Below are positions 621-19,800 of a DNA stretch of 21,972 nt, in pieces (position 1 is the first letter of the stretch; each line of letters opens with the position of its first letter). The DNA is from a virus: the IMG/VR virus record IMGVR_UViG_3300021085_000252, positions 1 through 21,972 of that record; one strand, given 5' to 3'. A program made the position numbers and the translations under genes. Below the pieces are notes generated by a model. It was not told where the DNA came from. It was given only the letters and a program-made list of their open reading frames with translations, and did not search any database.

Positions 621-998
621 TCACTCTCCGTTGATCCATCCATCTGGTATGATTTCCTCTGCCCATATAAAATTGTGTTTGTCAGCCCATTCACCGCAAG
701 TCATCTTCGTTCCATCCTTGCGTTTCTTTGCACCTTGCACTGGACTGTTCGCTCGTTGAAATAAGAATCTAATGTCTAACTCTGGGTGTTGCTCTTTCAT
801 GTTACGCATCTTGCGCTGTGCGTCCTGCCGAAAGTATCCCTTCACCTCGATGTACGTTTCACCAATCTTAAGATCAGGTGTGTAGTTCCTAGTCACCGTG
901 TAGGGTAGCTTACAAGGTTCATACTCATAAGCTACTCCACGGTTTTTGAGGTTGAGTTGCACTCGTTCTTCTAGGGTCGATCTAGAAGTCAGCGGCAT
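621..998 (-). CDS. T7 gp3-like endonuclease I (Holliday-junction resolvase)
   Basis: A 125-aa protein, against 149 aa for T7 gp3. It matches gp3 through most of its length, including KEQHPELDIR and the IIPDGWI end. The four catalytic residues of the family are all present: the early Glu in TLEERV (E10), Asp in YTPD (D42), and Glu and Lys in YIEVKG (E51, K53). In T7 the enzyme cleaves branched DNA and helps degrade host DNA. I start it at the ATG at 998, because AGAGGAG lies 7 nt upstream, rather than at a TTG two codons earlier that sits almost on the SD. It overlaps the 3' end of the SSB gene by 17 nt, which suggests translational coupling. It is shorter than T7 gp3 at both ends. Confidence 0.93.
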   Translation of the reverse strand: MPLTSRSTLEERVQLNLKNRGVAYEYEPCKLPYTVTRNYTPDLKIGETYIEVKGYFRQDAQRKMRNMKEQHPELDIRFLFQRANSPVQGAKKRKDGTKMTCGEWADKHNFIWAEEIIPDGWINGE

Positions 999-1608
999 CT
1001 GCAAACTCCTCTGTTACTTCAGAGTCGTTAGACGCTGTGTTGCTAGGAGGGGGTGCAACATAGCCGTCTTCCTCATCAAAGACACTAGTCGCAGAGTTAC
1101 CATACTCAACTAGGTCTATTACTTGTACTGCCTTTAGTCTTAAGGATACGCCCACCTTCTTGGTTGACTGCATGATGTAAGGAAACGGTTCAAACGCTAC
1201 CTTAACTCGTGAGCCATTACCAATTAACATATCTTTTGGCAGTGGTTGTTTCTTTGCATCTAGTACAGCAGGAGCTTGTTCATAATAGCTTCCGTCTTTA
1301 CGCTGTACCTTTGCTTTTAGTTTAAACTTAAATTCTACTTTACCAGTATCGTCACCAGTGTCTTTATCGTAGACTGTTTGCACTACATCCTGAGTGGTCA
1401 GAGTATTCTTCAGTGGTGGCTTTTCTTTCACTGCTCTTTTAAATTCCTCTTGGACTATTTGTTCTAGTCGCTCACTCATCTCTGCCGCTTCCTCTTGAGA
1501 AAGCTGAAGGTTGATACTGTAGTCACCTAATGGATTCCACTTTGTATCTGGCTCAAGAACTTTTGCCCATTGCGCTGAACCTTCGAGTACCATAATATTT
1601 TTCGCCAT
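982..1608 (-). CDS. T7 gp2.5-like single-stranded DNA-binding protein
   Basis: A 208-aa protein of the gp2.5 type: a mixed beta body (about residues 1-165) with the pattern of T7-like SSBs, then a low-complexity Pro/Ser/Asn linker and an acidic C-terminal tail ending in EEFADAADF. The acidic tail with a terminal Phe is the feature of gp2.5 that docks on the DNA polymerase and primase-helicase. Its place between RNA polymerase and endonuclease I agrees with T7 order (1, 2.5, 3, 4). The start ATG at 1608 has AGGAATAT upstream. A 15-bp motif that may be a phage promoter (1653-1667) lies about 45 bp upstream. Identification rests on tail, length, general similarity and context. Confidence 0.85.
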   Translation of the reverse strand: MAKNIMVLEGSAQWAKVLEPDTKWNPLGDYSINLQLSQEEAAEMSERLEQIVQEEFKRAVKEKPPLKNTLTTQDVVQTVYDKDTGDDTGKVEFKFKLKAKVQRKDGSYYEQAPAVLDAKKQPLPKDMLIGNGSRVKVAFEPFPYIMQSTKKVGVSLRLKAVQVIDLVEYGNSATSVFDEEDGYVAPPPSNTASNDSEVTEEFADAADF

Positions 1609-1652
1609 AAATTATATTCCTATATGTTTAAGTTTTAGTTTGGACTGCTTAT

Positions 1653-1667
1653 GGGGCATGACCTTTT
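1653..1667 (-). promoter_or_regulatory. Candidate phage RNA polymerase promoter, copy B
   Basis: The minus strand reads AAAAGGTCATGCCCC here, followed by ATAAGCAG. The same 15 bp occurs once more at 11058-11072 and nowhere else I could find. This copy lies just after the RNA polymerase stop codon and before SSB, where T7-like phages place promoters for class II genes. No promoter of this sequence is known to me, so this is inference from repetition and position. Confidence 0.45.
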
Positions 1668-1668
1668 T

Positions 1669-3327
1669 CTATGCAAAAAAGTAGTCACTTTTTAACACCT
1701 CCTCGATGTCAAGTTCCCCTTTGGTTGGAGGTAGTGGCACATCCGTTCCCTCCGTTAATGTTGTTACTGCGCTATCGTAGAGATTTTGCAGCACATCATG
1801 TTCTTTGTACATCTCCACAAACGCCTCTCTTAACTTATCGTTAAGCTTTGGCATGTTTGGTGAGTGTGTTCCGTAGCTATCGTGTACCATTGCGAAATCA
1901 GTAACACCGCTCTCTACGCACTTCCCTACTGTAAAGGTTAAAGCCGCAGCATCTAATGAATGCACAAGGTTAGGACTAGCCCCTGACGCTGCTTTGCGCG
2001 CATCTACGGAGTCATCTATTGGCTTAGAATAGTTAAGCCTAACTACTGATCCGTTAAGGTGTGTAGCTATCCTTAGTTTCCTTTGCTCATTATATGTCTG
2101 CCTTACCAGTAAGCCTGTTGGTGTGTGCCACTCAAACATCTTACCTTGTTTTGCATACAGCCTAGCAATTTCTTTAACGTAATCCATCACTGAGTGTGCT
2201 GAGACAATAACCTCATTGATTGCTTGCCATACAAAACCTGACAGATACATTGAAGGCTTGAAGAAATCATCATTCCAAGGGTTACGCCCCTTACACTTTT
2301 CTTCTAAAGATTCCTTAATGTATTCTGTACAAGCGTGTCGTGTACCTGAGTACGGCACAATCATCACTGGTCTCTTAGTTAACTTCCTGCATACACCTAC
2401 ATCAAGTAACTGTTTCGCCAACTGTGTGTCTTGTTGTTGTAACAACTCTGTTGCGCGTTTTGCTACGTCTGTGTAAATGTCCTGCGGTACTTCACTTGGT
2501 AGTAAGTTAACTGCCCTACCTCCCTCTTTGTCCCTGAGCATTGCTGAGAGGTGTTGTAAGCCATTGCACGAGCCATCACTAGCACAGGGTAGGTGCGTCT
2601 CAAAGTGCTCCCCAAACTGCCTAGCGTTGCTGTACAATGCCCACTCATAACACCATGCAAGTGCTTGCCAAGGTTTATCTGCTTCCTGCCACCATCTGTT
2701 AGTTAAGGGATCGTTATAAACATCGACAGCGTTCTCTACGTTCATGTACGCCCACATCTCTCGATCTTCTAAACTTACCTTATCTACTCCAAATACATTA
2801 GCACCATGTATAGCCAACCATCTAGCTTCTTCGTCATTCGTGATAGTAGCTGGGTTAGCAAACTCTAACAATGCTTTGCTGTAGTCAGCGTTCTGTGGTG
2901 AAAGGAAAGACTCTACTGGATACTTACGTCCACGAAAGTCTAACTGCCATACATACCACATCTTCTCTCTATGTGCATACTCTTCTGCAAGTTGTATTGT
3001 ACGTTCAACCTGTATGCGTTTAGACATAGATTTGTTATTGAAACTGTGAATCTTGTTTCGCTCTCTTTTAAACTCCTTAAACTTAATCTTCTCTTCGTCA
3101 TTAAGAAACTTAGGCTCTTTACTAAAAGGATATTTAGGTAGCGACAGGTTATCTTTAGGAGGCAAACCCTCCCAAGTCTGTCCACTGTCCCAACACTGCC
3201 TAATTGTCTGCGCGACAAACCCATTAATACGCCAAGGTGTTTGCTGTATAGCGTTTACACAAGCGTACTCATGGGTAAGGTCGCACTGTTGCAGCTTATC
3301 TACGTAGTCCTGTACAATCTGCCTCAT
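1669..3327 (-). CDS. T7-like single-subunit RNA polymerase, C-terminal catalytic part (separate ORF)
   Basis: A 552-aa protein covering T7 RNA polymerase from about residue 300 to the end. Counting from a possible GTG two codons earlier, the catalytic residues are all present: D253 in ASDGSCNGLQH (T7 D537), K320 in LTKRPVM (T7 K631), Y328 (T7 Y639) and D485 in VHDSYGT (T7 D812). The C-terminus SDYFFA matches the T7 SDFAFA foot. The fingers and palm are complete, and the region equivalent to the promoter-specificity loop (about 400-436) differs from T7, so it should read a different promoter. The N-terminal domain is encoded by the preceding ORF in another frame. I choose the ATG at 3327, which forms ATGA with the upstream stop and has GAGG 8 nt before it. 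Confidence 0.95.
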   Translation of the reverse strand: MRQIVQDYVDKLQQCDLTHEYACVNAIQQTPWRINGFVAQTIRQCWDSGQTWEGLPPKDNLSLPKYPFSKEPKFLNDEEKIKFKEFKRERNKIHSFNNKSMSKRIQVERTIQLAEEYAHREKMWYVWQLDFRGRKYPVESFLSPQNADYSKALLEFANPATITNDEEARWLAIHGANVFGVDKVSLEDREMWAYMNVENAVDVYNDPLTNRWWQEADKPWQALAWCYEWALYSNARQFGEHFETHLPCASDGSCNGLQHLSAMLRDKEGGRAVNLLPSEVPQDIYTDVAKRATELLQQQDTQLAKQLLDVGVCRKLTKRPVMIVPYSGTRHACTEYIKESLEEKCKGRNPWNDDFFKPSMYLSGFVWQAINEVIVSAHSVMDYVKEIARLYAKQGKMFEWHTPTGLLVRQTYNEQRKLRIATHLNGSVVRLNYSKPIDDSVDARKAASGASPNLVHSLDAAALTFTVGKCVESGVTDFAMVHDSYGTHSPNMPKLNDKLREAFVEMYKEHDVLQNLYDSAVTTLTEGTDVPLPPTKGELDIEEVLKSDYFFA

Positions 3328-4103
3328 GCCCACACCCTCACGAAAGGTAATTGATTAATATGTTCTGAGTAGTAACCACCACCCCAGAAGTCATCCCAAT
3401 CTTTAGGCTCAATAACGCAGGGGCTGTACCTTGGTAACGCTACGCTGTTTGTTTCGTTAAAAGCTTTTACCCATTCTTCAGTCTCTGGTGTTGGTACTAC
3501 AAGGTAAGTGGTTTTCTTTTTCGTTACCTTTTTCTCTAGCCTGACTATGCCTGTTTCTTTAATAATTAAATCAACCAACTTAAGACCTACGTGTATTCTA
3601 TTCTCACTGCTCCAGTGTGGTATATCTAATCCATCAGATTTTATCTTGTGGTCAAGACCGTACCGCTTGTGGTCAAAACCTTTATCTGATTTTTTGTTAG
3701 CTAGTGTAAGTACATTGGTTGCTACTTCTTTATCTAGCTCTAGCCACTTGTCTAACCTCATCTGTGTTTCTATTTGTATTCCTATAAACTTAGCTACGCC
3801 TAAAAGTGTGGGCTTCCTGACCATGTTATCTACTAAAGATATTAAAGCTAAGTAAGCCATCTGCCCTTCGTCACAACCTTTAGTTAAATTCTTAAAGGCT
3901 GACTTTGTTATCATCTTGTGGTTGTTGTACTCAACTATCGCATCCATTAATGGTTCGACAATACCCTTGATGATGGTGCGCCCGTGCTTAGTCTTTGATC
4001 CTAAATCTTTAGATAATAAATCTTCTAAACTTTTATTGTAGCGGTGTATCCCTGACTGTACCATGCGGTACTCTAAGTCTATTTGATCATCCAATGTTGC
4101 CAT
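3324..4103 (-). CDS. T7-like RNA polymerase, N-terminal part (separate ORF)
   Basis: A 259-aa protein matching the N-terminal domain of T7 RNA polymerase: WSSENRIHVGLKLVDLIIKE aligns with T7 WHKEDSIHVGVRCIEMLIES, and WGGGYYSEHINQLPFVRV aligns with GGGYWANGRRPLALVR. The ORF ends just after this segment, and the next ORF begins at the equivalent of T7 HSKKALMRYEDVY, so nothing large is missing at the break. In T7 this domain binds the promoter upstream region and early transcript. The second of two adjacent ATGs is used because AGAGG is 6 nt upstream. Either the polymerase is a heterodimer, as in N4 RNAPII, or a frameshift or sequence error lies at 3324-3345. The two parts sum to about 811 aa, against 883 for T7. 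Confidence 0.9.
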   Translation of the reverse strand: MATLDDQIDLEYRMVQSGIHRYNKSLEDLLSKDLGSKTKHGRTIIKGIVEPLMDAIVEYNNHKMITKSAFKNLTKGCDEGQMAYLALISLVDNMVRKPTLLGVAKFIGIQIETQMRLDKWLELDKEVATNVLTLANKKSDKGFDHKRYGLDHKIKSDGLDIPHWSSENRIHVGLKLVDLIIKETGIVRLEKKVTKKKTTYLVVPTPETEEWVKAFNETNSVALPRYSPCVIEPKDWDDFWGGGYYSEHINQLPFVRVWA

Positions 4104-4115
4104 CATTTACCTCTC

Positions 4116-4363: not shown

Positions 4364-5377
4364 CTATGCTTCGAGTAAATTAGACCCGCCAACCATAGTT
4401 GAAGTGTCCCATTTAGCATACTTAAGAGTGGTTGCAATATTTTTATGACCCATGTAACGCATGATGTTAGCAGTGTCCCAACCCTTCTCAGTAAGTCGTG
4501 TTGCCGTAGTATGTCTCCATGTATGCCAACACTTATTTGTTAGACCTAAGTTCTCACGAACCTTGTCCCAAGCAAACCTATGCTTGTATAATTCAGAGTT
4601 AAAAGTTTTACGCCTACGCAGTATCTCTTCTACTCTTTTTGTTACAGGCATCAGCAGTGCTTCACCATTCTTCCTGTCTGGTATGTAAGCACCATACACT
4701 TGCGAACCATCTTCTCTAGTTTGCTGCAACTTGATTAACTTATCGCCATCAACCTTCAACACCTCAGAAGCTCGCATACCTGTGTCTACTGCCACGATAG
4801 CATAGTCATGTAGGTAGTCTTCACCTAACCTCTCAAACTCGCTTAGAATGGCATTCTCTTCGTCCTTCGTAAAGTATTCAAGCCTCTCTCTGCCCTGCTC
4901 ACTTTGACGTTTAAATTTAGGTACAGAAGTTAAAGCTCCTTCATCAACAGCATTGTCTAAACAACGCTTAAGACATGAGATATGTCTGTTTACTGTTGAA
5001 GGTGCATACCCTTGGTTCTCTCGCATCCACTTGATCCAGTCAAAGACTGTAGTAGTGCTGATACGATTGATGGGTGACTTCTCGCCCCAATACTTACAGA
5101 CAATACTTTGAATAAACATTACTTGTCTTTCATTCTTAGTATTAGCCCAGTAGTTTTCATGGCATCGATCAAACGCATAGCGTAGCGTCCATCCTGATGC
5201 CTTACCAGTCTCTCTGTTTACCTCCATAGCTGTAGGCATATTACCCTGAGCTATGTCTCGCTTCCACATAGCCTCCAGTAGCGAAGCATCTTCCTTAGTG
5301 GAGAGAGTTTTTCTGAAGCGTTTGCCTTTGAAAGTAACGTAAGCTTCCCAACCGCTACCTCTTTTAGTTACACTCAT
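4364..5377 (-). CDS. int: Tyrosine-family phage integrase
   Basis: A 337-aa tyrosine recombinase. The N-terminus (GSGWEAYVTFKGKRFRKTL) looks like an arm-binding domain. Residues about 60-160 form the core-binding SAM-like domain, and the catalytic domain has R202 in DTGMRASEV, K236 in the beta hairpin, H285 and R288 in HTWRH, H311 in YMGHKN and nucleophile Y320 in LKYAKWD. The R-K-H-R-H-Y set is complete, so it should be active. I start it at the ATG at 5377, which has AGGAGG 6 nt upstream and overlaps the stop of a 29-aa ORF as ATGA; an upstream in-frame start would lack this and read through the small ORF. attP lies right downstream. In the phage it is followed, across attP, by the RNA polymerase. 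Confidence 0.96.
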   Translation of the reverse strand: MSVTKRGSGWEAYVTFKGKRFRKTLSTKEDASLLEAMWKRDIAQGNMPTAMEVNRETGKASGWTLRYAFDRCHENYWANTKNERQVMFIQSIVCKYWGEKSPINRISTTTVFDWIKWMRENQGYAPSTVNRHISCLKRCLDNAVDEGALTSVPKFKRQSEQGRERLEYFTKDEENAILSEFERLGEDYLHDYAIVAVDTGMRASEVLKVDGDKLIKLQQTREDGSQVYGAYIPDRKNGEALLMPVTKRVEEILRRRKTFNSELYKHRFAWDKVRENLGLTNKCWHTWRHTTATRLTEKGWDTANIMRYMGHKNIATTLKYAKWDTSTMVGGSNLLEA

Positions 5378-5463
5378 GCTATGCCTCCTGTTAAAAATAC
5401 TGCTACGCAACCAATCGCATAACAAGCACCGCAATATAACGCGCCTTCTATTAAAAAATTCAT
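5374..5463 (-). CDS. 29-aa membrane microprotein between regulator and integrase
   Basis: A 29-codon ORF that begins MNFLIEGALYCGACYAIG and ends GGIA. It is mostly hydrophobic and long enough for one transmembrane helix, with three cysteines. Its ATG has AGGAGG 8 nt upstream. The start overlaps the stop of the winged-helix gene as ATGA, and its own stop overlaps the integrase start as ATGA, so all three genes look translationally coupled. The SD of the integrase lies inside it, so it could also act mainly as a coupling leader. No known family recognised; function unknown. Confidence 0.6.
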   Translation of the reverse strand: MNFLIEGALYCGACYAIGCVAVFLTGGIA

Positions 5464-5771
5464 AGTCTTATCCTCCTTGCTAAGGCTCTGCCTCGCTTTG
5501 TTACCTCGATAAACTTCTCAATACGTCTATCGGGATTCTCATATAGTTTAACTAAATCGTGATCTACTAGCACTCGTAAGTTTCTACTTGCACTAGCACT
5601 GGACGTATCCATAAACTCACCTACGTCCATAACCCTCAGCGTCTCTGCGTTAACGAAAGTACGTTGAGCGATAATTAAAAAGGCATACACAGTTTGAATG
5701 TGCATCCATGCGTCAATCTTTCTGAACTCTGTTAGTATTCTTATGTGTTCTTTTAAGTCTCGACCAGACAA
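5460..5771 (-). CDS. MarR-like winged-helix regulator
   Basis: A 103-aa protein with a winged helix-turn-helix pattern: helices at about 24-45, a recognition-helix segment around FMDTSSASASRNLRVLVDHD (about 53-73), then a wing (LYENPDRRIEKFIEV) and a last helix TKRGRALARRI. The SxSRNLRxLVxxxLV pattern is typical of MarR-type folds, though the dimer helices are short. The start is a TTG at 5771 with GGAGG about 5 nt upstream; no better ATG keeps the domain intact. It sits directly upstream of and is coupled to the 29-aa ORF and int, so it is a likely regulator of lysogeny or excision (inference). A perfect palindrome at 5961-5975 is a candidate operator. It is not a CI- or Cro-type repressor by sequence. 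Confidence 0.75.
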   Translation of the reverse strand: MSGRDLKEHIRILTEFRKIDAWMHIQTVYAFLIIAQRTFVNAETLRVMDVGEFMDTSSASASRNLRVLVDHDLVKLYENPDRRIEKFIEVTKRGRALARRIRL

Positions 5772-10012: not shown

Positions 10013-10252
10013 CTATTTATTTAGCTCTCGCTCAGCCTCCCAAATCATAGTTTTTAATTCTTTAATCTCAAAATATTCAGTCATAAAACCAGTAAGGCGG
10101 AAATCATCATCTGCCGTCCAATCCTCAGCGAGTGCCCGTTTACAAGTTTTTTGCGTATTAACTGATGATTCTAATGATCGCGATCTAGTAGATAGTGCTA
10201 GGCTTATTTGGTGCAATTGATCGCTGTTAAGTTTTAGGGTTGAAGTAGTCAT
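10013..10252 (-). CDS. First early gene, small helical protein (79 aa)
   Basis: A 79-aa protein (MTTSTLKLNSDQLHQISLAL...), predicted to be two or three helices with mixed charge, without a recognisable domain. GAGG lies 9 nt before the ATG. It is the first gene after the 830-bp non-coding region, hence the first early gene in T7 terms, where anti-host functions are common (inference). A Fur-like site ends about 25 nt upstream of its start codon. Confidence 0.68.
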   Translation of the reverse strand: MTTSTLKLNSDQLHQISLALSTRSRSLESSVNTQKTCKRALAEDWTADDDFRLTGFMTEYFEIKELKTMIWEAERELNK

Positions 10253-10277
10253 AAGATGTAGCCTCTAATATGTAAAT

Positions 10278-10296
10278 GATAATGATTCGCATTTGC
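10278..10296. promoter_or_regulatory. Fur-box-like site 3
   Basis: GATAATGATTCGCATTTGC, 15 of 19 matches to the Fur consensus, in an imperfect palindrome with AAATG and CATTT ends (10274-10294). It ends about 25 nt before the start codon of the first early gene and about 9 nt before its SD. Confidence 0.5.
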
Positions 10297-10645: not shown

Positions 10646-10736
10646 TAGTAGAGCTGCAAGCAGTGGTTTTTATATCCTCTGTAATATCAGCAGTAGCGCG
10701 GTGAGATTCCATCCCGTGGCGTAGGTTGTGGCAAAT

Positions 10737-10755
10737 GATAATGATTCTCATTTAC
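10737..10755. promoter_or_regulatory. Fur-box-like site 4
   Basis: GATAATGATTCTCATTTAC matches the Fur consensus at 16 of 19 positions. In the 7-1-7 view, TGATAAT-G-ATTCTCA has one mismatch. It starts 34 bp before site 5, about three helical turns. Confidence 0.6.
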
Positions 10756-10770
10756 AAACCCGTGATAGAT

Positions 10771-10789
10771 GATAATGATTCTCATTCGC
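10771..10789. promoter_or_regulatory. Fur-box-like site 5
   Basis: GATAATGATTCTCATTCGC matches the Fur consensus at 16 of 19 positions, with the same 15-bp core as site 4. It lies about 28 bp downstream of the inferred start of a possible host promoter. Confidence 0.6.
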
Positions 10790-10852: not shown

Positions 10853-10910
10853 ATTAAGACACCCCCAGACAAAGGTAGCGAAGCCCGTGCAAGTTCTAGG
10901 GGGTCTTAAT
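10853..10910 (-). terminator. Long hairpin with T-rich tail, probable late terminator
   Basis: A 12-bp inverted repeat: ATTAAGAC-A-CCCCC (10853-10866) and GGGGGTCTTAAT (10899-10910), one bulged base, 32-nt loop. On the minus strand the stem is followed by TTTTGTT, so it can stop late transcription before the early region. A role in end processing or packaging is an alternative. Confidence 0.55.
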
Positions 10911-11003: not shown

Positions 11004-11024
11004 CTTCTATATACTATAGGTATG
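11000..11024. other. A/T-rich hairpin next to a G-rich tract
   Basis: CATAC pairs with GTATG, and inside, after a TT bulge, CTATA pairs with TATAG around TAC. It is followed at 11029-11042 by seven G, one A and six G on the plus strand. A structured boundary element near the genome end is possible; no specific function can be assigned. Confidence 0.4.
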
Positions 11025-11057
11025 TAAAGGGGGGGAGGGGGGTCTGTATTCCTATAA

Positions 11058-11072
11058 GGGGCATGACCTTTT
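11058..11072 (-). promoter_or_regulatory. Candidate phage RNA polymerase promoter, copy A
   Basis: Minus strand AAAAGGTCATGCCCC followed by TTATAGGAATA, so a TATAGG start region like that of T7 promoters. It lies directly after the last late gene, where T7 has the phiOR replication promoter. Copy B at 1653 shares the 15 bp, but its putative start is shifted by one base. Confidence 0.5.
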
Positions 11073-11080
11073 AAACCCAG

Positions 11081-11434
11081 TCATAGCAAGGGATTCTCAC
11101 TTAGCTTTTTAAGGCTTCTTTTAACGCCTTTAACTTGTTCTTTAAGGACAACCACATCTTTCTCAATGTCGCTTGTGCTTGGGATTTCAATGCTGCTAAC
11201 TTTCTCAGCCAAGTTATCAATCCTGCCACGTAGCTGTTCAATTTCTTTTCCAATCTTTCCAATGTCATTATCTTCTACCCTTGTTTCTAGTTTAACTAAC
11301 CTACCTTCTAGCTGTGTAGGAGCGTTTGTCTTCTCTAAGGAAGCTACCTTCTCTGTTAGTGTTCCATAACCTATGGCTGCACCACCTATTGAACTAGCTA
11401 TTCCTATCCATAGTGCTACGTCTTGTGGTTTCAT
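11081..11434 (-). CDS. TM plus coiled-coil protein at the end of the late block
   Basis: A 117-aa protein with one N-terminal membrane helix (about 7-25, ALWIGIASSIGGAAIGYG) and a long heptad-like coiled coil (about 27-112). This topology fits an inner-membrane spanin or a similar envelope protein, but no partner lipoprotein is visible, and it lies away from the holin and endolysin genes. It overlaps the preceding stop as ATGA. Last gene of the late block. Function unknown. Confidence 0.7.
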   Translation of the reverse strand: MKPQDVALWIGIASSIGGAAIGYGTLTEKVASLEKTNAPTQLEGRLVKLETRVEDNDIGKIGKEIEQLRGRIDNLAEKVSSIEIPSTSDIEKDVVVLKEQVKGVKRSLKKLSENPLL

Positions 11435-12222: not shown

Positions 12223-12634
12223 CGATTAGTCCTCCTATCGGGCATGGGGTTTTTGCGTTTAACATCGCATGAAATACTCTAGGGTCATTGCACAGAACAC
12301 TGGTAGCAGCAACCTTAAGACCTAGTTGTTCTAACTGTCTAGATAGCTTTAACATCTCACATACCTCATCTCTAGTGGATGAACCGTAAGATATACCTAT
12401 CTGTAATGTTTGAACACCTCGTCCATTAGATACAACACAGACATCTTGGTTGTATACTGGGGAAGCTGCACCGACTGCTGTGGGTACTGGTGTACCTTCT
12501 TGACTTACTACAGTGCTTGTTGTTGTGGTTATAGTCTCTGCTTGTGTGTTATTACTAAAGTCACCCTGATTTGCATCATTAGCAAGTACAGGGGAACTTA
12601 AGAACACGAGCATTATTAGTTTTTTTAAATCCAT
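12101..12634 (-). CDS. Exported protein of unknown function (177 aa)
   Basis: A 177-aa protein with an N-terminal signal peptide (LIMLVFLSSPVLA-ND), then a Thr/Ser-rich linker (about 25-60) and a compact part with four spaced cysteines (about C66 to C130) around GVQTLQIGISYGSSTRDEVC and LGLKVAATSVLCND. The Cys pattern suggests disulfides in the periplasm. The basic C-terminus is encoded in DNA that also encodes the signal peptide of the next gene. The ATG at 12634 overlaps the end of TerL by 10 nt. No named family recognised, although the central block looks like conserved phage sequence. Confidence 0.72.
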   Translation of the reverse strand: MDLKKLIMLVFLSSPVLANDANQGDFSNNTQAETITTTTSTVVSQEGTPVPTAVGAASPVYNQDVCVVSNGRGVQTLQIGISYGSSTRDEVCEMLKLSRQLEQLGLKVAATSVLCNDPRVFHAMLNAKTPCPIGGLIGDKAIKYYKEHPSIVPDLPVVKRSEKPKPIRHGILGAKHR

Positions 12635-14307
12635 GTGTTAGCTCTTTTGGGTGAATTAACATTATAACCGTTAACGAACTTATCTATCTCGTCCATCAGC
12701 AGCTTGTTCTTTCTATCTTGCATCTCTTCTTCTACATCAGCAGCCATCTGTTCTACCCAATACGCTACACCCATCGCTAGTGCATCTAATCTATCGTCAT
12801 GCGCTAGAGATCCCCTATCCTTCGTTATGCGAGTCATCTGGTACGTTAACATATACCTCTGAGCTTTCTCAGGGGGATGGTGTTGAACGCTGTCAAAGTC
12901 CTTTTGAATAACTTTAGGATCGAAGACGAGCTTGTGCTGGTTCATTACAGGCTCTAGTGTATCAATAATACGTAGTTCTTTCTGCTTACTGTGTCGTACT
13001 TCCTCAGTAGTAACTGGATATATCTTTTTCAAGAAAGGTTTCAGTAGTTCTGTAAACATACCGTCACCAAAGTTACTCTCCACCAGTACAGCGTTTACTT
13101 TATGTTCCTTCGCTATGTTACATAACTTCGTTAGCGTAGTTTCATCGTAACCGCCTTGAATACCTGAACAGTCTGAGACGTACAAGTAACCGTTTAACAT
13201 CTTAACAACTGCGTAAGCGGTTTCATCCTGACCTCTACCAGATGGATCAATCACTAATACCGAACCATCATACTCTATGTAGTCCCCTAGAATCGCTTCT
13301 GGGGCGTAATACTTGTCACCCGCTAGTCCTACATTAGGTAGGTCGCTAACTGGCTTCATAACGCCATACACGAGCTTCTCGGGTGCTTTATCATTGTCTA
13401 TCGACATCACCATAAGATCATTTAGCTTCAATGGGTATCTATCCATATCTGCTAAACTTGTGTCTAACATAAACTGCAATGCAAAACCTGAACGACCATA
13501 AGATAGTTCACGTTCTAATAAGTCCTCATCATCAAACCGCAGAGGATCTACTGGATTGCCGTCTAAGGGACTTTGTGCTTCATGCATAGCATCCCATAGG
13601 GTAGGTGCTAAACGTGCGCCATACGACTTCTCAGCCTTCTCTATGGACGGATATCTAGCAGTCCAGACTCTCATCTGGTATCCACGCTCTGTGAGTGTAT
13701 TATAAAGACTCATTTCACATTGTGGTGTACCTAGGTAAAGAATCTTACCCTCTGGTTTTAGTACAGCATCAAATTCCTTAACAGCTTCACCTAATTTCTC
13801 GCGCATCATTTGCGTCATAGAATTGTTAGGTACCTCGATGTCATCGGCAATGATGATGTCTGCCCGACTGCCCGTTAACTGACCAGTGATACCTACTGAT
13901 TTAACAGAAGGGCTACCACTAGCCAGCGCGGGTCTTACATCAAACGCAATCTTACTCCACCTTTGCTCACTTGTTGCTATGAGATGTTGGCATATTGGGA
14001 GTTCTAGGATTAAACGTTGTGTGAATGTCGAAAAATCGTCAGCTCTTTGTTTTGATGCTGACACTACCATGAACTTCTTTTGTGGGTCTAGAAGTAATTG
14101 GTGTACGACAAAAGCGGCTGTAATGTAGGACTTACCTACACCACGAAATGCTTCAATAATTGCTCTACGAGGGCAGTTCTGAATATAGTCTGCCATATCG
14201 TATTGGACAGGAGTAGGGTCAGGCAAGTTGAGATGCTTCCACACTATATACATAAAGTTACGGAAGTCTTTTAGTTGCTCTGGCATCTTTTCCATTATGC
14301 TTTCCAT
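12625..14307 (-). CDS. terL: T7 gp19-like terminase large subunit
   Basis: A 560-aa packaging motor, close in length to T7 gp19 (586 aa). The ATPase domain has Walker A EAFRGVGKS (52-60), VMVVSASKQRADDFSTF-like motif Ia, the conserved VGITGQLTGSRAD (138-150) and Walker B IIIADDIE (151-158), then motif III YLGTPQ. The nuclease domain has VIDPSGRGQDETAYAV and the late AHDDRLDALA with its acidic metal-binding residues. All match T7 gp19 in order. The protein cuts concatemers and pumps DNA into the procapsid. A second ATG at 14295, forming TAATG with the preceding stop, is an alternative start. Confidence 0.96.
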   Translation of the reverse strand: MESIMEKMPEQLKDFRNFMYIVWKHLNLPDPTPVQYDMADYIQNCPRRAIIEAFRGVGKSYITAAFVVHQLLLDPQKKFMVVSASKQRADDFSTFTQRLILELPICQHLIATSEQRWSKIAFDVRPALASGSPSVKSVGITGQLTGSRADIIIADDIEVPNNSMTQMMREKLGEAVKEFDAVLKPEGKILYLGTPQCEMSLYNTLTERGYQMRVWTARYPSIEKAEKSYGARLAPTLWDAMHEAQSPLDGNPVDPLRFDDEDLLERELSYGRSGFALQFMLDTSLADMDRYPLKLNDLMVMSIDNDKAPEKLVYGVMKPVSDLPNVGLAGDKYYAPEAILGDYIEYDGSVLVIDPSGRGQDETAYAVVKMLNGYLYVSDCSGIQGGYDETTLTKLCNIAKEHKVNAVLVESNFGDGMFTELLKPFLKKIYPVTTEEVRHSKQKELRIIDTLEPVMNQHKLVFDPKVIQKDFDSVQHHPPEKAQRYMLTYQMTRITKDRGSLAHDDRLDALAMGVAYWVEQMAADVEEEMQDRKNKLLMDEIDKFVNGYNVNSPKRANTWI

Positions 14308-16848: not shown

Positions 16849-19800
16849 TTATATTCCTGTGCTTGTTATTCTTACTTGTGCATCTTTGACCTGAGCCGAA
16901 TCAGTTGAAGACAGTTCTTTAACATATAACTTGTAAATTAAAGTATCATCGGTGTAGGGTAGTTTAAAGCTAACATTATGTCGTTCAGCCCCTGACCTAT
17001 ATCTTTCTGCAATGTCTTTATAAACAAGAAGCTGTGCGTTTGCGTTTTGCCACGCATAAGGGTGTAAATAAACAGTATCGCCAGTCGCTATAGGTGCTGT
17101 AGTATTTGTAGCGCAGAAGTATGTTCTATCCGCACTAGCTTGATACTGTACTGCTACAACTTGCTGTTTAATACCGCCTGAACTAGATTGAGATATTCTA
17201 CAGAACTCTGTGAATAAGTGTTCGTAATTTCCTGTAACGTAATACCACTGCTCATTACTATTTCGTGCGCTATAATAGGATGAAGATGAAAAAGCATTAG
17301 CAGTTCCTATACTAACGGCTGAGACAGTGCTTGGTACAGTAAGATATAAAGAAAGCCTAATGTCGTTATTGCTACTGCTGACATAACTCCAAACTGTACT
17401 CCACTCGATATCAATAAAACGCATAGTCTCTACAGGAGTGCTAGGGTGATATAGATTTAGATATTGCCCTAAGTTTTGATTTGATGTTGTTAAGTCAAGT
17501 ATCCGATTAAAAGAACTTAACCTCTCGTCTCTTACCCTATGATAAGGAATAGTATCTAATCTAGCACCATCTGTGGCTACGTTTCTACCGTCTACTGTAC
17601 CTGTTACATCTACATTACCATTAAGATTAATCTGCTTTGTGGTTGTAGAGCTGGTAGGTGCTATATTAACTGTTGTTGTGCCGCCTGTACCATATCCTGT
17701 ACCTATGTTAACTGTCTTAGTATTGCCTGAACCGCCAGAACCAGTCGCAATATTAGTAGTAACGCTACCTGTAGTGCTTATGTCTACATTAGATGCAGTT
17801 AAATCACCACCAATATTGATAGTGCCTGTACCAGTAATATTACCTGTTACATCAAGACCGCCTTGAACACCACCATACAAAGTAGAAGAGCCTGCTACAG
17901 TCAACGACTGTGTGCCTGATGGTGGTAAGCCTATATTCACATTACCAGTAAAGGTAGCACCTGATAGGTTTGCTTTTCCTGTGATGTCAGATGCTGTAAG
18001 GTAAGTACCTAAATCACTAATCTGACTTTCAGTAATACTTAATGCCGCTTGGTGCTGAGTAACACTAGTTTGAGTAATGTTTGCATCTGGTACGTTTGCC
18101 CATGTAACAGTTGTTGCTAGGTCGTTAGCCTCTGCTGTTAAGTAACCCACGGCATCGTGGTCTCCCCAACTATAGGCTGTATCCCAGTTAAGAATCTTAG
18201 TCGCATCTTCAGTCCACTTAGTGCCAATGCTATTAGTCACTGTAGTAGAGAAGTTAGCATCATCGCCTAATGCAGATGCAAGTTCGTTTAGAGTGTCTAA
18301 AGTAGCAGGGGCAGAATCTACAAGACCGCTTACTACTGTGTCTACATAGGTTTCAGTTGCGTAGGTGCTAGAGTCAATAGTGTAAGTTCCTGCACCAGTG
18401 CGCTTCATAAGACCGTTGGATGTAAAGTCCCCGTCCATTACTGCACCAGCAGCTTCAACATTAGTAGTTGTTACAGTTGCATCAGAACCAGCAGCACCAG
18501 TTGCTCCCGTTGCACCAGTTGCACCAGTTGCTCCAGTTGCTCCCGTATCGCCACGAGGTACTGTTATAACACCTGTTACGGAGTTATAGGAAGCATCCGT
18601 GCCAGCAGCTCCTGTTTCAACATCAACGATGGGAGACAAGCTATCGGCTACTATTTCAATAAGATCACCAGCAGCAACTCCAGAAGTTAAAATTACCGAA
18701 GTACCATTGTAAGCCGTATAGTCGTTAGCTGAGGGTACTGCGATTCCAGAGTTTGGAAGGATGCACGCACCGTAGGCATCAGTTATGTCTGTTACATATA
18801 CACGAGCATTGTAGTCATTGGTAATAAAGTCAGAGGCGCAAGAACCTGCCTGTAACAAAGTTAAGTTTTCTGCCCCACCAGTGCCAATAAAATCAGTATA
18901 AGCAGTCCATTTGTACCTAAAGGAGCTTCCAGCAGGAACTTGATAAGTCCAAACCCAGTCACCATTAGAATCTTGGGTAGCTTCACCTTCTGTCCACATG
19001 CTTTCAGCAGCACTATTACTAGCTACCCAACCCCAAAGATCAGAATTTACATACACGCTCTGATAATTATTATCCGTTAGCTTAATAGTAACAGTCGCAG
19101 GAGTACTGGTTGAGATTCCAGAACTTGCCAAGTGACAAGCGTTAAAAGTATCAGTGATGTCTCTATGGTAGATGCGGGAGGAAGCATCGCTGGTTATAAA
19201 GTCAGAGGCACACAATGAGCTATTAGTAGTAAGATCTTCAAAACTAGTAACGTCATTAGAAGTAGTAACAAGCCATCTATAGCGAAAGGTAGATCCAGCG
19301 GGAACTTGATAAGTCCAAACCCAGTCACCCTCATCATTTAGTGTGGCTTCACCATCAACATCCATATATCCTGACGTATTGTTAGCAATCATTTCAGACT
19401 CTGTTTCTGACCAACCCCAAAGATCAGAATTTAAATAAACGTCAGTATAATTATTATTCGTTAGTTTAATAGTAGCAGTCACGTTGCCATTAGCGTCTGC
19501 CTGTTGACTAGCTGTAGCTTGACTAAGTGGTATTGTACTTTCTACAAGTTTAACACCGTTGAGATACACATCTAAGTGACCAGCTTGGTAGTCCATTGGG
19601 AATGCTGTTTGTCCCGATGTAGCCACAAAAGACTTTCGATTAACAGGGTTAGAGATGCCAAGGGCTGCGTTTTGCCATCCGTTAGCTTGGTATACTTTTA
19701 GTATGTTAACACCAGAGTCAAACCAAAATGCACCAACTCCTATCGAAGCACCGTCTGAATGGACAGTGGGTGCTGTCGTGCTTGACCCTAAAAAGGTTTT

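Follow-up and report, generated by a model that had tools for sequence, protein, structure and literature searches.

Candidate T7-type promoters, probably read by a two-part phage RNA polymerase, in a group of uncultured phages

What is the function of a 15-base block that stands twice in the genome of a marine T7-like phage, each time between genes? The window, i.e. the whole stretch analysed here, is a virus record of 21,972 bases (IMG/VR IMGVR_UViG_3300021085_000252), and its minus strand is the coding strand of the phage. The block, AAAAGGTCATGCCCC, was proposed to be a promoter of the phage RNA polymerase. An exact search of the window confirms both copies, which lie at 1653–1667 and 11058–11072 only, on the minus strand. 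Both are intergenic and point in the coding direction, as described, with copy A behind the last late ORF and copy B ahead of the SSB gene. The continuations also agree with the description, copy A running into TTATAGGA and copy B into ATAAGC. The features of the window are as follows.

11054..11072, minus strand: copy A, −19 to −1, AAAAGGTCATGCCCC followed by TTAT
11053, minus strand: predicted +1 of copy A, an A, reading AGGAATACAG and onward
1649..1667, minus strand: copy B, −19 to −1, AAAAGGTCATGCCCC followed by ATAA
1648, minus strand: predicted +1 of copy B, a G, 40 nt ahead of the SSB ATG
1669..3333, minus strand: RNA polymerase C-part, T7-type, 554 aa (PF00940)
3324..4106, minus strand: RNA polymerase N-part, 260 aa (Pfam RPOL_N), overlapping the start of the C-part
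982..1608, minus strand: T7 gp2.5-like single-stranded DNA-binding protein (SSB; Pfam SBB_T7), the first gene behind copy B
11081..11434, minus strand: last late ORF, 117 aa, with its stop 8 bases ahead of copy A
12625..14307, minus strand: terminase large subunit, T7 type, in the late region upstream of copy A
11010..11019, minus strand: CTATAGTATA, within a palindrome, at about +35 to +44 relative to the predicted +1 of copy A
10855..10908, minus strand: stable hairpin, at about +146 to +199 relative to the predicted +1 of copy A

Copy B sits in the 60 bases that separate the genes of the polymerase C-part and SSB. The junction of the late and early regions is contained within one contig. 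Upstream of the polymerase are a tyrosine integrase gene (4364–5434, minus strand, Pfam) and a MarR-like ORF (5460–5771, minus strand), the latter a weak Pfam match below the cut-off.

Judged on the window statistics alone, the repeat is weak evidence and suggestive only, because one or more exact 15-mer direct repeats also turn up in 65 of 200 sequences drawn from a first-order Markov model at the window's length. Two further sites match AAAAGGTCATGCCCC at 3 mismatches, and the window has 4 matches within 3 mismatches where 0.32 would be expected, for a repeat that was not preselected before the significance was estimated. There are 30 repeated 15-mers in the window overall, mostly inside the tail-fibre gene. 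This 1216-aa tail-fibre-like gene carries direct repeats at 18935–18963/19301–19329 and at 19027–19049/19411–19433. The window statistics were thus rejected as proof. An exact scan of IMG/VR was also set aside as evidence. It returned 57 stretches, namely 10 with the B setting, 7 with the A setting as in the window and 40 in other settings, and it missed the third copy described below (copy C), which escapes the full 15-mer match because one of its first bases differs. The pattern CCCWTAWGCNNNNC, tried over 20 contigs, was dropped as too narrow (6/20). What gives the repeat its significance is the presence of elements of the same design in the relatives of the phage.

The polymerase C-part identified 67 related loci in IMG/VR, of which 63 hold the 3′ end of the polymerase gene (L058, L059, L063 and L069 do not). 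In all 63 the element lies directly or shortly behind the polymerase stop codon. L056 has the same element, yet it was omitted from the register and covariation analyses. The element consists of a variable stretch of about 12 bp, a C (rarely G) at −5, a melting box of four bases and the start. Its endings behind the polymerase include CCCC-ATAA-GC, CCCC-TATA-GC and GACAC-TATA-GC, and the sequence upstream of the box depends on the lineage; the window-type element AAGGTCATGCCCCATAAG, for instance, stands against a CCACCCC-type element of another type. After removal of near-duplicates, 26 loci with 16 different promoter types (−12 to −6) remain.

A single register fits all 63 B copies (62 relatives and the window), the register pattern being drawn from the variants already observed in these loci. 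At −5 the window and almost every relative have C; L044, L045 and L046 have G. In each of the 43 listed copies, whether A, B or C, the four bases behind −5 are followed by a purine start (A or G). The readings are ATAA|GCAG for window B, TTAT|AGGA for window A, ATAG|GAGA for the C of the near relatives, and mostly TATA|G for the others. The melting box departs from TATA in the window's type (ATAA, TTAT, ATAG) and in L055 (ACTT). With CCCC-N4-(+1) fixed, the start is an A in copy A and a G in copies B and C. The A start of copy A is ordinary, since phiOL (CTATA|AGG) and phi2.5 (CTATT|AGGG) in the annotated T7 record both start at A. The original prediction regarded the one-base shift of copy B as a weakness. 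The shared register with a purine start shows that the shift is a difference in the melting box and not in the spacing, and the weakness disappears. Thus the elements have the C at −5 and, at a fixed distance, the melting box and purine +1 of T7-class promoters.

The copies occur at three places: A behind the late genes, B between polymerase and SSB, and C before the structural module. Copy C is outside the window and known from relatives, where it is flanked by a ribonucleotide-reductase-like gene and by the small ORF with which the structural module begins. The gene names at this junction derive from translations and from the gene order of LUZ100 and HTVC019P. The search for further copies ahead of structural genes, which had been called for, was successful in the near relatives L007 and L066, which carry AAGGTCATGCCCC-ATAG-GAGAA just ahead of the first ORF of the module. 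The C junction is present in 18 contigs, with +1 always 10 or 11 bases ahead of the ORF ATG, and in 17 of them the C element is of the genome's own type. The C-junction entries include an unrelated contig that lacks the element (L117), a spurious minus-strand row (L047) and a duplicate of L066 (L113). The genome's own element recurs on the coding strand in 18/19 genomes (window included; contigs searched piecewise). Several intergenic copies per genome on the coding strand, two of them in the window, are as found with T7-class promoters.

The B and C copies of a genome match each other. Over 10 lineages they differ at 0.3 of 9 positions within genomes and at 4.7 of 9 between genomes, a concordance matched by 0 of 100,000 permutations. 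Of the 18 contigs that have both copies, 10 entered the permutation: one for each type, and L035 in addition. L005 was kept out of it and is treated separately below. A second copy on the same strand, at no more than 1 mismatch, was found for 10/10 elements versus 73/3000 random 13-mers from the same loci.

The counter-example is the L005 contig (G002, IMGVR_UViG_3300025645_000213; 35 kb), which has the polymerase type and the B of the window, but a C of the L022 type. Its first 10 kb are 99.85% identical to L003 and its last 3.7 kb 99.95% identical to L022, with a further 100% identical block between these two parts. We read such a patchwork of near-identical blocks as either an assembly chimera or the product of a very recent recombination.

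The same genome encodes a cognate T7-family polymerase (PF00940, E 1.7e-107; PF14700, E 3.2e-11). The T7 catalytic residues D537, K631, Y639 and D812 are conserved in the C-part of the window, which has A at the position of T7 N748. The genes of the N-part and C-part overlap. Alignment would place the split point near T7 residue 295. The split is kept in the relatives examined (window and 40 loci), in most cases with the overlap ATGA, a count in which several loci have the N-part running off the contig and L046 has a slightly different junction.

In T7, N748 contacts −10 and −11 (PMC5937735). The column aligned with it ranks 1 of 206 variable columns for −11 over the 16 promoter types, 6 for −10, and 3 for −11/−10 together. 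All seven types with G at −11 have K at 748, and 7 of the 8 K types have G; the exception is L044, with K and A at −11. L020 has D748 with CC at −11/−10, as has T3 with its annotated promoters. Relatedness inflates such column scores, and path-disjoint tree pairs were therefore used. Of 10 such pairs, the 5 that agree at −11 to −9 all keep 748 unchanged, and 748 changes in 4 of the 5 that differ there (p 0.024; three more of the 233 columns, including loop position 755, attain this value). The 748 signal is therefore modest after relatedness is handled. Position 758 gives no clear signal (rank 121/206 for −11, 21/206 for −8). Specificity-loop residues thus change with promoter bases, as expected of a T7-class pair. 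The loops of SP6, LUZ100 and Pasto were aligned and not used as support, the register at 748 or +1 being uncertain. SP6, with R at 748 and a motif that has G and T at −11/−10, does not fit a simple one-to-one code at 748.

The repeats within genomes, the covariation with the loop and the fixed register all favour the proposal of a phage polymerase promoter. We consider it highly probable (roughly 93%) that the elements form a T7-type promoter set read by the phage's own polymerase, with AAAAGGTCATGCCCC covering about −19 to −5. The two-polypeptide polymerase would bind the element, its specificity loop reading the variable bases from about −17 to −6. The AT-rich box (−4 to −1) would then be melted, and RNA synthesis would begin at the purine. 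Three promoters may serve the genome. Copy B, with its predicted start at 1648, would drive SSB and the replication genes, and copy C, outside the window, the structural genes. Copy A, predicted to start at 11053 and placed like T7 phiOR, may give a short RNA for replication or packaging.

The part played by copy A is the point on which another reading survives best. Early genes lie behind it in the same direction, so that copy A might be an ordinary early-gene promoter. We hold this to be unlikely, though still a serious option, for the first clear early ORF starts only at 10252, beyond the stable hairpin and about 800 bases without a clear gene. In T7, T3 and LUZ100, moreover, the terminase gene is followed by a phage promoter, and copy A holds that position at the late end of the genome. 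The best reading of copy A is, by analogy, a phiOR-like replication or packaging promoter that would yield a short RNA. The hairpin at 10855–10908 (−22.4 kcal/mol, z −3.24, 0/200 shuffles) was not called by a scan for consensus terminators; it may possibly be the end of the copy A transcript. Host sigma-70 promoters near copy A are at the chance level, with 4 found against 4.3 expected.

Some 12–45 bases behind the start of copy A are a conserved poly-C stretch (11029–11042) and the palindromic CTATAGTATA. The latter is found in 12/13 A-bearing records, several of them near-identical. Together they are a possible origin or packaging signal.

Further downstream, the sites 10736–10750 and 10770–10784, 34 bases apart, are each one mismatch from TGATAATNATTATCA, a form of the Fur box. 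A third such site, 10277–10291, has 2 mismatches. The pair is kept in 9/9 A-bearing records of the window's type (two from one contig) and was not seen near A in 4 other lineages. These Fur-box-like sites hint at a possible iron control of the early region.

A second alternative is that the repeat binds another protein, such as the MarR-like regulator, a replication-origin protein or the terminase. The MarR-like gene is present, if on a weak Pfam match, and copy A lies where packaging or origin signals are expected, with the poly-C and palindrome behind it. The binding of MarR at a phage promoter was proposed for LUZ100 (PMC10134795). However, the element changes together with the specificity loop of the polymerase, keeps the design of −5, melting box and +1, and precedes SSB and the structural genes in lineage after lineage. 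A site for another protein is thus very improbable.

Still less credible are a terminator and the core of an attachment site for an integrase. A tyrosine integrase is encoded by the phage and copy A is near the genome-end region, but the window has no tRNA gene, and the copies in relatives precede SSB and structural genes. Neither copy forms a stable hairpin: compared with shuffled sequences, no clear gain in folding was seen (z −0.84 for B, +0.64 for A). Searches of the window for terminators, tRNA or attachment sites and known RNAs gave no match. A functionless 15-mer repeated once in 22 kb, by chance or as leftover similarity of gene ends, would suit the Markov sequences and the 40 IMG/VR matches in other settings, but it is already refuted by 10 lineages having different, internally matching sequences at the same places and by the rarity of recurrence among the control 13-mers.

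The promoter reading allows a wider picture, which we offer tentatively, at somewhat less than even odds. The entire lytic programme would run from only three promoters and a natively two-piece T7-type polymerase. Promoter and loop would have co-diverged into at least 16 types among close relatives, possibly as orthogonal pairs. Copy A would make only a short replication or packaging RNA and, in the window's species group, would be followed closely by two Fur-box-like operators where the early region begins.

In the openly licensed literature searched, no description of this promoter set was found, and among part of the matches to two 11-mers of the motif there was no phage context. The best listed isolate relative in the phage collection has 40% polymerase identity. 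The elements provide likely start signals for an uncultured phage group. The 16 promoter types are matched to polymerases that are often 80–90% identical, a natural polymerase–promoter series, and the residues for promoter choice are therefore testable by single swaps. The pairs might also serve as orthogonal expression parts, among them a polymerase that is naturally in two pieces.

The set shares with T7 and T3 a specificity stretch, the C at −5, the AT-rich −4 to −1 and the purine +1. It also shares the promoter positions before SSB (phi2.5), before the structural genes (phi6.5/phi9) and behind the terminase gene (phiOR). The predicted A start of copy A resembles phiOL and phi2.5 of T7. Unlike in T7 and T3, the specificity sequence is unrelated, and three promoters per genome were found, versus their larger annotated sets.

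The promoter set belongs to a known kind, because Pseudomonas phage LUZ100 has promoters at the same three places, mapped by ONT-cappable-seq: phi2 behind the polymerase, phi6 at the RNR/structural border and phi8 behind the terminase. LUZ100 also has an integrase and a MarR-like gene upstream of its T7-type polymerase, an arrangement discussed as a lysis–lysogeny switch (PMC10134795). LUZ100 differs in having eight promoters of another motif, with an additional phi1 ahead of the polymerase gene, and a one-piece polymerase, 40% identical in the C-part. Unusual here are the low promoter count, the diversity of types between closely related phages and the two-piece polymerase.

The Pelagibacter phages HTVC019P, HTVC031P and their relatives have the same order of polymerase, SSB and endonuclease, and RNR ahead of the structural genes; HTVC019P also has a regulator and an integrase upstream. 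Their polymerase, in contrast, is in one piece and about 37–39% identical, and their records carry no promoter annotation. A T7-family polymerase of two polypeptides is found in N4, whose RNA polymerase II consists of gp15 and gp16 (PMC4496689). The N4 enzyme, recruited by gp2, uses an AT-rich minimal promoter at −7 to +2, whereas the phages described here look T7-like in promoters and gene order.
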